IMG/VR virus record: IMGVR_UViG_3300033143_001899
Span: 1-36,052 of that record
Length of the DNA stretch: 36,052 nt
From: a virus
Strand: one strand, 5' to 3'
This document shows, piece by piece, positions 2,047 through 33,682 of the stretch. Within the stretch, counting starts at the first letter, position 1; each line of letters begins with the position of its first letter. A model generated the notes under the pieces. That model was not told the origin of the DNA and did no database searches. It saw nothing but the letters and a program-made list of their open reading frames with translations. The translations under genes and the position numbers were made by a program.

Positions 2047-3605
2047 TAGAAATACATATTATTTCCTGCTATAGTTCCTACAGTAGGATAACTTAAAAAC
2101 ATGTTATAATATTTTTGATGCATTGCACGTCTATTTACTTGAATTATTTTATGTATTTCTCTGAAATCTGGTGTATTTACAAAACTTAAAGCATTATTTC
2201 TTGCAGCTTTTAATCTTTGTTCTACCAACTGTAATTGATTTACAACTTGTTCTCCAGCAAAAATCATATTTTCTAGTATCCTTTGTTTTAATGCATACTC
2301 ATAATATTCATTACAATAAGGTTGATCTAATACTAATAAATTACCATCAGTATCTTCCATTGCTCCTTGGTAATTCATATATACTTTACCAGTAGTAAAA
2401 CTTGTTAGAAGGTATCCATCTTTTATTTCAGCAATATCATGTGCTTGTAAATTTACATTGGGGCAATCACATTGAACTGTACTACACTCTTTAATTCTCA
2501 AAGGTGTAAAAAGAGTATATCTTCTTCTTTGTCCTGCTCCTATATATTGAATAACCTGATAATCTGCTTTTCCTTCACATGCAGTTACAACACATACATC
2601 ATTACATGTTGGATCCTCACATGGTCCTGTATATCCTGGTTCTGGTACATAGGGTACAGGATTAGTTGTATCTACATGTGTTCCTGAAGGCATTTCACTT
2701 AATACTTCAAATTCTCCACATATAAATGCATAATTTAAATATGCAAAATCTGTAGGTAACATACCTTTATTATGTTCTATCTCTACTATTGTTTCTTTAG
2801 TTCTATGTATACGTAATCCAAGATCATAGTTTACACGTGTAGCAACTTTAATCAATTGTTGAGGTTCTATCATCCCTTCTAATGAATAAGTTGCAAAATC
2901 AACAGAGACATCTTCCAATAATTGGTCAAATGTTCTATATCTTATATCTTGTTTATTATCTGAATCATCTGGTGGTACTTTCATAGTATTAAACATACTA
3001 GCTAATACCTGTTGTTCTATCTCTGCATATAAAAATTCTGGTATATAAATATTTTGTAAATACCTTGGTGTACAATCATTTGTATCATCACAATCCCATC
3101 TTGAGATATCTCCTTCAAATACTCCTTCTACCTTAATTGCATCCCAAGCTACATTAGGCATATAAATATGATTATTCATATACCAAAAGTATTTTGTCTT
3201 ATTATATCTAAAACTTGTAGTCTTTGTCATAGAAGTATATGTACCTGGTGATGTAGCTTGTCCTTCTATAGAACCATCTATAGATGATACTGTTCTTATA
3301 AGAGGTCCCCAGTATCCTTCCATAAATGTTGGTAGTTCTGTTTTGGTTCTTTTAATAGTACATCCACTTTGTATTCCACTACATTCTGCTTCAATTTTAT
3401 CTACTTCTATTAATTCAACATATGGTAATGCTTGCCATACACTATTAAACTTCATAAGTTTATTTGAAGAGTCTTGTCTTCTCATAAATAACTGAGCATA
3501 CTTTAATACCATACTATATATGAATCTATCAGTCATAAAGGCATCTTGCTCACCAGATTTGATTTGACCTCTTATTCTAGATACTACCTCTCCTATAGTT
3601 GTCAT
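2046..3605 (-). CDS. Tail/ring protein of the crAss-like virion
   Basis: A 519-residue protein. The N-terminus (VSRIRGQIKSGEQDAFMTDRFIYSMVLKYAQLFMRRQDSS) reads like the helical start of crAss-like connector or tail-tubular proteins, and a beta-rich body follows. Residues about 310-400 carry a Cys-rich insert (CEDPTCNDVCVVTACEG, then CSTVQCDCPN). The C-terminus is helical. It overlaps its upstream neighbour by an ATGA junction and its downstream neighbour by TAATG, forming a tight three-gene tail cassette (4135 to below 1). The position next to the stabilisation-like protein supports a role at the portal-to-tail connection. The family assignment is moderate, and the precise ring identity cannot be decided here. 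Confidence 0.6.
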   Translation of the reverse strand: MTTIGEVVSRIRGQIKSGEQDAFMTDRFIYSMVLKYAQLFMRRQDSSNKLMKFNSVWQALPYVELIEVDKIEAECSGIQSGCTIKRTKTELPTFMEGYWGPLIRTVSSIDGSIEGQATSPGTYTSMTKTTSFRYNKTKYFWYMNNHIYMPNVAWDAIKVEGVFEGDISRWDCDDTNDCTPRYLQNIYIPEFLYAEIEQQVLASMFNTMKVPPDDSDNKQDIRYRTFDQLLEDVSVDFATYSLEGMIEPQQLIKVATRVNYDLGLRIHRTKETIVEIEHNKGMLPTDFAYLNYAFICGEFEVLSEMPSGTHVDTTNPVPYVPEPGYTGPCEDPTCNDVCVVTACEGKADYQVIQYIGAGQRRRYTLFTPLRIKECSTVQCDCPNVNLQAHDIAEIKDGYLLTSFTTGKVYMNYQGAMEDTDGNLLVLDQPYCNEYYEYALKQRILENMIFAGEQVVNQLQLVEQRLKAARNNALSFVNTPDFREIHKIIQVNRRAMHQKYYNMFLSYPTVGTIAGNNMYF

Positions 3606-31835: not shown

Positions 31836-31997
31836 ATGACTGAACTAACAATATTAAAGAACCTACTTAAAGAAGAACAAGCTAAAGTTAAAAAGCTTGA
31901 AGAACAGCTGGTTGCCGTCAAGGCTTTATCAAATAAACTACACTATGTTTTGTGGGATGATACTTCTTTAGAGAAAGATAGTAACCTGCATGATTAA
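31836..31997 (+). CDS. Small coiled-coil peptide (53 aa)
   Basis: A 53-residue ORF beginning MTELTILKNLLKEEQAKVKK and ending SLEKDSNLHD. The first 33 residues are a heptad-like Leu/Glu/Lys coiled coil (LLKEEQAKVKKLEEQLVAVKAL), and the remainder is polar. It lies between the terminator at 31738 and the tmRNA-like RNA and ends 5 bases before it. Codon use matches the neighbours and the reading frame is clean. Function is unknown; a small oligomeric regulator is possible. Confidence 0.5.
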   Translation: MTELTILKNLLKEEQAKVKKLEEQLVAVKALSNKLHYVLWDDTSLEKDSNLHD

Positions 31998-32002
31998 AAT
32001 AT

Positions 32003-32076
32003 GGGGCTGAGGTTGGCTTTGACTGATGCATTTGTTTATGCATTGGTGTACGTGGGTTCAATTCCCACCAGTTCCA
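32003..32076 (+). ncRNA. Mini tmRNA: tRNA-like domain without messenger part
   Basis: A 74-nt RNA. The acceptor stem is GGGGCTG with CAGTTCC, followed by discriminator A73. The T-arm is GTGGG-TTCAATT-CCCAC. The 5' strand reads GGGGCTGAGGTTGGCTTTGAC, close to the conserved tmRNA start (GGGGCTGA...TGG.TTYGAC), and the 3' strand resembles the tmRNA end (GGGTTCAA.TCCC.CCAG.TCCA). The third acceptor pair is G3-U70, the alanine identity element. A 10-bp stem (32022-32031 with 32038-32047) and a TTGTTT hexaloop replace the tag-coding sequence and all pseudoknots. No canonical D-stem or 7-nt anticodon loop can be drawn. CCA is not encoded. tmRNA is known to rescue stalled ribosomes with SmpB; the job of this short form is inference. 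Confidence 0.72.
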
Positions 32077-32207: not shown

Positions 32208-32438
32208 ATGGCTTTAGATAATCCTTATAATATAACTATCAATGATCACTATTGGTGGTGGAGAGAAGCTGTTACTCATCTTGAATCACAAGGTGTTAAA
32301 TATATTGGTTGGGCTAATGGTGGTATTGCATATCCCAAAGGAGATCATGTTGATCTTAGCCAAGGTGATTTTGGAAATAATACTACAGTTAGTTTCTATC
32401 CTGAAACCAATGAAGTAATATGTACTGATATGAGTTGA
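32208..32438 (+). CDS. Small unknown protein, Trp/Tyr-rich
   Basis: A 76-residue protein: HYWWWREAVTHLESQGVKYIG, then WANGGIAYPKGDHVDLSQGDF and NNTTVSFYPETNEVICTDMS. It looks like one small alpha/beta unit with a conspicuous aromatic cluster at the N-terminus. The ATG follows an A/T-rich leader (AATAATTTATT). It lies downstream of the cloverleaf-like RNA. No family is recognised; small early proteins of this kind in phages are often host takeover factors, which is only a possibility here. Confidence 0.55.
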   Translation: MALDNPYNITINDHYWWWREAVTHLESQGVKYIGWANGGIAYPKGDHVDLSQGDFGNNTTVSFYPETNEVICTDMS

Positions 32439-32715: not shown

Positions 32716-32777
32716 AGCAGTGGGTAGGTAACCACTCTGAAATAATAGGAGGCAAGGTTCAAGTCCTTGCATTGCTA
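32716..32777 (+). ncRNA. Short armless tRNA-like RNA (62 nt)
   Basis: The acceptor stem AGCAGTG with CATTGCT is fully paired (one G-U), with A as discriminator. The T-arm CAAGG-TTCAAGT-CCTTG is canonical. The space between them is only 31 bases instead of about 41. It holds a 3-4 bp hairpin around GGTAGGTAACC and a 4-bp stem CTCT/GGAG with a 9-base loop. No 7-base anticodon loop with U33 can be drawn. It keeps the elbow half that RNase P and CCA-adding enzyme recognise but cannot decode normally. Confidence 0.6.
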
Positions 32778-33646: not shown

Positions 33647-33682
33647 GAAAGGGTGTCAAAGCCCTTTCTTTCTTTTATTTTT
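33647..33682 (+). terminator. Intrinsic terminator in the leader of the Ro-like gene
   Basis: GAAAGGG-TGTCAAAG-CCCTTTC (7 bp) is followed by TTTCTTTTATTTTT. It ends only 21 bases before the ATG at 33704, so either a promoter overlaps it or expression of the Ro-like gene needs readthrough (attenuation). The annotated GTG of a longer frame lies inside this hairpin. Confidence 0.75.

Follow-up and report, generated by a model that had tools for sequence, protein, structure and literature searches.

A phage tmRNA pared down to the tRNA-like domain, with similar RNAs in many other phages

Positions 32003 to 32076 (+ strand) of the window, the 36,052-nucleotide stretch of viral DNA analysed here, encode a tmRNA reduced to its tRNA-like domain (TLD). 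A 10-bp stem with a hexaloop links the two tmRNA ends. The RNA sits within a series of small genes on the + strand. Its parts and its neighbours are as follows.

31836 to 31997, + strand: open reading frame of 53 amino acids, ending 5 nt before the RNA
32003 to 32076, + strand: TLD-only (messenger-less) tmRNA, 74 nt to A73 (RF00023, model R1, fold)
32003 to 32009, + strand: 5' strand of the acceptor stem, GGGGCTG, with G3 at 32005; pairs fully with 32069 to 32075
32010 to 32021, + strand: tmRNA-type D-loop, AGGTTGGCTTTG, without a D-stem (sequence, RF00023 alignment)
32022 to 32047, + strand: helix 2a equivalent of 10 bp (32022 to 32031 with 32038 to 32047), hexaloop TTGTTT (fold, RF00023 alignment)
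32052 to 32068, + strand: T-arm, GTGGG-TTCAATT-CCCAC (sequence, RF00023 alignment, fold)
32069 to 32076, + strand: 3' strand of the acceptor stem, CAGTTCC (U70 at 32073), and discriminator A73 at 32076
32208 to 32438, + strand: open reading frame of 76 amino acids, the next gene downstream of the RNA
33653 to 35197, + strand: DUF2828/DUF7788 protein, phrog_850 'RNA-binding protein', 1.6 kb downstream of the RNA

In order, the RNA reads GGGGCTG AGGTTGGCTTTG ACTGATGCAT TTGTTT ATGCATTGGT GTAC GTGGG TTCAATT CCCAC CAGTTCC A. The acceptor stem, GGGGCTG/CAGTTCC, has seven pairs, among them G3-U70 and G4-U69. CCA is not encoded at the 3' end, where CTT comes next. The D-region, AGGTTGGCTTTGAC, contains no D-stem, and the T-arm comprises 5 bp and 7 nt. 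The 10-bp stem and hexaloop stand where the tag reading frame and pseudoknots would be. The first-pass annotation had described G3-U70, A73, the T-arm, the D-loop and the stem with its hexaloop just as we find them. Its 21-base conserved 5' end is indeed tmRNA-like, with one refinement: the D-loop consensus, TGG.TTYGAC, extends past 32021 to about 32023, where its final AC is already part of the paired 10-bp stem. The predicted fold has a free energy of -27.5 kcal/mol (z -2.8), which none of 200 shuffled sequences equalled. The fold of the reverse strand is unremarkable; hence, we rejected a functional structure there.

Covariance searches identify the RNA as tmRNA. In a local scan, Rfam model RF00023 aligns over model positions 1–374 but passes over the entire middle (45.3 bits, E 1e-16), and the contig-wide search returns the same match at E 1.2e-18. 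About 300 model positions are absent from the RNA. Both ends are matched, including the 5' strand, and the first-pass proposal of a miniature tmRNA with its messenger part deleted is thereby borne out. The score falls 1.7 bits short of the gathering score of 47. Hence, a default Rfam scan is silent on this region. ARAGORN also makes no call here. An independent covariance model (R1), built from 17 other phage RNAs with the window left out, matches at 42.4 bits (E 1.3e-7). Given the RF00023 E-values and the match to R1, we rejected a chance match. A second assembled contig, 99.9% identical, carries the same element.

The RNA has all parts of the TLD of a complete tmRNA: G3-U70, A73, a stemless D-loop and a T-arm. 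The RF00023 alignment places no messenger-like domain (resume codon, tag frame and stop) and no pseudoknots in the 74 nt. Nor did an RF00023 search of the whole 36-kb contig, itself a fragment of a phage genome, find another tmRNA match or a remote coding piece. In permuted (two-piece) tmRNA, the T-arm and 3' acceptor strand are encoded upstream of the 5' acceptor strand and D-loop. Here, the D-loop precedes the T-arm. We therefore rejected a split or permuted tmRNA, the alternative raised in the first pass. The permuted model, RF04321, reaches only 13.3 bits (36–94 of 213). An ordinary tRNA was also rejected: ARAGORN finds none, the best clan match is tmRNA, there is no D-stem and the predicted fold contains the hexaloop.

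The window contig is crAss-like, judged by its terminase. This protein is about 25% identical to named crAss-like terminases. It is related to the terminases of Crassvirales and of phages infecting Flavobacterium psychrophilum, and IMG/VR contains many close relatives. That relationship makes Bacteroidota hosts likely, and the host of this phage is probably a member of that phylum. The 53-amino-acid reading frame ends 5 nt upstream on the same strand, so that the RNA probably lies within a polycistronic transcript and would need tRNA-type end processing. Scans for a promoter or terminator of its own scored no better than shuffled sequence. SmpB and a full tmRNA are both absent from the window contig. 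A second tRNA-like sequence lies 640 nt downstream (32716 to 32777, + strand), with acceptor strands AGCAGTG/CATTGCT, a T-arm and a short middle. It matches tRNA (17.8 bits) and mascRNA (23.6 bits) weakly and is missed by ARAGORN; it has C3-G70, and hence is not of tmRNA type.

The first-pass annotation suggested looking for the same miniature form in related phages; it is present in many unrelated ones. A strict pattern, comprising the tmRNA 5' end (including GGGG.TGA), a gap of 10–40 and the T-arm, matched seven viral stretches and nothing in 84,980 bacterial and archaeal species genomes. With gaps of 41–71 it matched nothing in viruses. Hence, under this pattern the short form is a discrete class. 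A relaxed pattern, in which only the D-loop and T-loop were fixed, was run on viruses and gave at least 120 stretches, mostly TLD-only tmRNAs among the matches listed. Model R1 derives from 17 of the relaxed-pattern RNAs, with the window and a marine group left out. It nevertheless scores the marine forms at 46–57 bits, a crAss-like relative of the window (L110) at 58.5 bits and Streptomyces phage RNAs at 55–77 bits. The R1 search returned at least 119 matches in at least 118 loci, representing at least 91 distinct sequences of 63–89 nt. These counts include near-identical contigs (a rough grouping by similarity leaves about 61 clusters), and the contigs are metagenomic, many of them fragments. 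The 91 distinct sequences listed span 41 acceptor-stem types. In most of the matches listed, helix 2a contains an additional hairpin (consensus AAAGCC-NNNN-GGAA); the window RNA is one of a smaller group whose helix 2a carries its cap directly. RF00023 scores exceed the gathering threshold in 37 of 40 other records searched.

Cultured carriers are the Streptomyces phages pSt2308, Alone3, LuckySocke, GiJojo, Shaeky, BRock and Riptide. Their TLD-only RNAs sit in large tRNA arrays, and the annotation tables consulted do not label them as tmRNA. Riptide carries two forms, a TLD-only RNA (L253, 1477–1556) and a longer tmRNA of 269 nt (W05:94862-95130). A TM7 phage gave a weaker R1 match. Five marine contigs (L003, L004, L006, L007 and L009) encode a 64–68-nt version adjoining a conserved small gene. 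The first of these is T4-like, with DUF1549, DUF1553 and DUF1501 genes, which are typical of Planctomycetota and Verrucomicrobiota. DUF1549/DUF1553 and DUF1501 genes also occur in a T4-like marine phage contig (L112, 12151–15094), hinting at its host. Two phage contigs more distantly related to the marine group (L128 and L129, 1501–1566, - strand) carry TLD-only tmRNAs with acceptor strands GGGTGGC/GCCATCC and an encoded CCA, at a different genomic place. Among the 60-odd crAss-like relatives of the window searched, many of them fragmentary records, only L110 also carries a TLD-only RNA. This rarity makes the RNA look dispensable there.

PHROGs families match seven of ten large reading frames sampled from IMG/VR carriers. 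When R1 was run on 197 genomes of the Rhodococcus class, two had matches, both in surroundings that are phage-like by eye inspection of their reading frames. One match in a Rhodococcus genome contig (L010, 18.9 bits) was rejected as a chance direct repeat. Annotation tools mostly overlook these genes: ARAGORN calls overlap the RNA only three times in 85 carriers. BLAST of the 74-mer against cultured phages gave only partial matches on the T-arm side, many of them tRNAs. In the course of this work we also noted permuted tmRNA genes unannotated in the records of three phages, Bordetella PHB04 (L012), Achromobacter Axy11 (L013) and Tunturiibacter Tunturi_4 (L016). In the last of these, a release-factor gene with an RF-1 domain lies directly upstream. 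The tRNA array of Mycobacterium phage Rey (L018), which also has a full tmRNA, contains a GOLLD RNA (182.5 bits, 2828–3251) and a sub-threshold YrlA match (43.6 bits, 2411–2480).

The structure is supported by covariation. In a MAFFT alignment of the 17 RNAs, 92.6% of pair cells are standard, compared with 67% after shuffling and at most 53% after sliding; the covariation score is 0.673 against 0.158 for shuffled alignments. For 68 distinct sequences aligned to the model, covariation reaches 0.674, whereas shuffled alignments give 0.133 and slid ones no more than 0.107, and 96.6% of pairs are formed; this alignment, being fitted to the model, leans towards the structure, and the MAFFT alignment agrees with it. 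Acceptor pairs 4–7 vary among the 91 distinct sequences listed, with three to five pair types each. Conversely, pair 3-70 is G-U in 90 of the 91, and A73 is equally frequent (90/91). Neither the 3' acceptor strand nor position 73 was specified in the search patterns. One filter demanded A73; the model search did not, though G3-U70 and A73 raise its score. The exception (L259, 983–1060, + strand) has acceptor strands GCCCCTG/CAGGGGT, with C3-G70 and G73. That it was still found indicates that departures from G3-U70 and A73 are detectable. Alanine identity is lost in this RNA, perhaps through recoding to another amino acid. In tmRNA, a G-U third acceptor pair is the determinant for alanyl-tRNA synthetase (AlaRS), and the TLD makes contact with SmpB through its deformed D-arm (PMC3985003). 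The near-invariance of G3-U70 suggests selection for alanine charging.

The best reading of these sequences, to which we assign a probability of roughly 0.55, is that the phage-borne TLD would be alanylated by the host, bind SmpB and compete with host tmRNA, suppressing trans-translation and tagging. The parts for charging, binding of SmpB and EF-Tu, and entry into stalled ribosomes are retained; those for resumption and tagging are gone. We infer the steps from transcription and processing, through charging and binding to SmpB, to entry into the ribosome and the final effect, as follows. Briefly, host tRNA-processing enzymes would cut the RNA from a longer transcript, the host would supply CCA and AlaRS would alanylate the product via G3-U70 and A73. 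The charged RNA would then bind host SmpB and EF-Tu and compete with host tmRNA for SmpB and stalled ribosomes. Having entered the A site, it would take over the nascent chain. Since no resume codon or tag is offered, trans-translation and the tagging of proteins, including those of the phage, would be suppressed. No SmpB gene (PF01668) was detected in 46 carrier records, so host SmpB would be used. The functional part of the first-pass interpretation, that a charged RNA titrates SmpB or AlaRS and so disturbs rescue, is plausible and had earlier been proposed for mycobacteriophage DS6A. No link with a tag-dependent defence, also suggested there, was found.

The published precedent bears on how such an RNA might act. 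In E. coli, the TLD-only tmRNA of DS6A reportedly inhibits the endogenous tmRNA (PMC4131195; PMC11915505, citing Mao et al. 2009), perhaps via SmpB titration according to the second source (PMC11915505). The inhibitory DS6A-like molecule is described as working whether or not it can be charged with alanine (PMC4131195). Hence, pure titration of SmpB leaves the conservation of G3-U70 unexplained. In nature, some function must depend on charging; this points towards action within the ribosome, by blocking or by tag-free rescue. That function could be helpful rescue instead of inhibition. Such a rescue factor would be an alanylated mini-tmRNA that, with host SmpB, accepts the peptide; the complex would then dissociate by drop-off and peptidyl-tRNA hydrolysis, and phage translation would recover without degradation of phage proteins. 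The near-invariant alanine identity fits peptidyl transfer better than mere titration. In 22 of 85 carriers the RNA lies within 1 kb of tRNA genes and, together with its place in the Streptomyces phage arrays, this resembles a translation-support kit. Furthermore, the tmRNAs of oomycete mitochondria that lack a coding sequence (CDS), retained along with SmpB, are thought to aid with incomplete mRNAs (PMC11915505). However, a release-factor/ArfB domain (PF00472, RF-1) is absent from all 46 carrier records, so release would have to be the host's, and inhibition is the outcome of the sole published test known of such a form. We consider rescue unlikely, though the best placed of the alternatives; the sequence by itself is compatible with both blocking and rescue.

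The RNA could instead be processing punctuation, a generic tRNA-like fold serving only as an RNase P and RNase Z cut signal in a polycistronic phage transcript. It begins just past a same-strand reading frame, and there is a weak match (22.7 bits) to mascRNA, a tRNA-like RNase P signal. However, a cut signal needs none of G3-U70, A73 and the tmRNA-type D-loop, the first two of which recur in 90 of 91 sequences unselected by the search patterns. This explanation is very improbable. Less probable again is a remnant: a tmRNA gene undergoing decay, or an attP copy that integration into host ssrA left behind. The 3' ends of tmRNA genes are common integration sites, mycobacteriophages ZoeJ and LilSpotty have only a 3' tmRNA stretch immediately upstream of the integrase, and in one carrier (L187) an integrase lies about 1 kb from the RNA. 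Yet both ends are retained with strong compensatory pairing, a pattern that largely refutes a remnant; the strict pattern yields no intermediate sizes, and a tyrosine integrase occurs in just three of 46 carriers and is lacking from the window contig. The least probable account, a Y-RNA-like partner of the DUF2828 protein downstream, builds on a putative link to that same-strand neighbour, which we take to be possibly TROVE/Ro-like, and on the tRNA-like parts of bacterial Y RNAs, but the neighbour was not noted beside other carriers on unsystematic inspection and YrlA (RF02553) is unmatched in the Rfam scan at E up to 10, compared with E 1e-16 for tmRNA; a Y RNA was hence rejected.

Competition with host tmRNA thus remains our preferred reading for the window RNA. 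More tentatively, and at somewhat less than even odds, TLD-only tmRNAs may be a widespread, dedicated class of phage RNA, mostly with the inner hairpin in helix 2a. Members would be selected for alanine charging and, within the ribosome, would serve as acceptors that supply no tag, thereby turning off trans-translation during infection or taking its place. They would not be passive sponges for SmpB. If TLD-only RNAs do block or bypass trans-translation, then phages interfere with a means of ribosome rescue that nearly all bacteria share. The cultured Streptomyces phages make function directly testable.

A TLD-only tmRNA in a phage (DS6A) and CDS-less organellar forms are already published, and the window RNA joins that kind. 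The breadth of the class in phages, the covariation and the inner-hairpin architecture are new, being undescribed in the open-access literature searched (subscription papers lay outside the search). What was a curiosity of one phage becomes a recurrent phage RNA, with at least 91 distinct examples and a clear alanine-charging signature. The 2025 tmRNA database lists nine 'standard, no CDS' genes among 97,179 tmRNAs, and 79 phage tmRNAs in all. Bacterial tmRNA (RF00023) shares with the window RNA the acceptor stem with G3-U70, the stemless D-loop, helix 2a and the T-arm; in the window RNA, the messenger-like domain, tag and pseudoknots are gone and about 300 nt are missing. Full-length phage tmRNAs (for example in Mycobacterium phage Rey, Chryseobacterium phage MA9V-3 and crAss-like cr272_1) have the same TLD parts. 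Their annotated lengths are 340–376 nt; the order is standard or permuted, and there is space for a tag frame and pseudoknots. The RNA of DS6A is a close likeness, being phage-borne with little beyond the tmRNA TLD. Like that type, the window RNA keeps the standard order of 5' and 3' tmRNA ends, with a short stem-loop between them and no tag frame. DS6A is one mycobacteriophage, compared here by its published description, whereas the window RNA belongs to a crAss-like phage and has the 10-bp stem and hexaloop. A tag frame is also missing from the CDS-less tmRNAs found in the mitochondria of oomycetes and in the plastids of Mallomonadaceae, the latter about 65 bp long (PMC4131195, PMC11915505). 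Those organellar RNAs descend from bacterial genes, and oomycetes keep a nuclear SmpB. Phage TLD-only RNAs, in contrast, belong to viruses, and the hosts of those viruses are expected to retain a full tmRNA.
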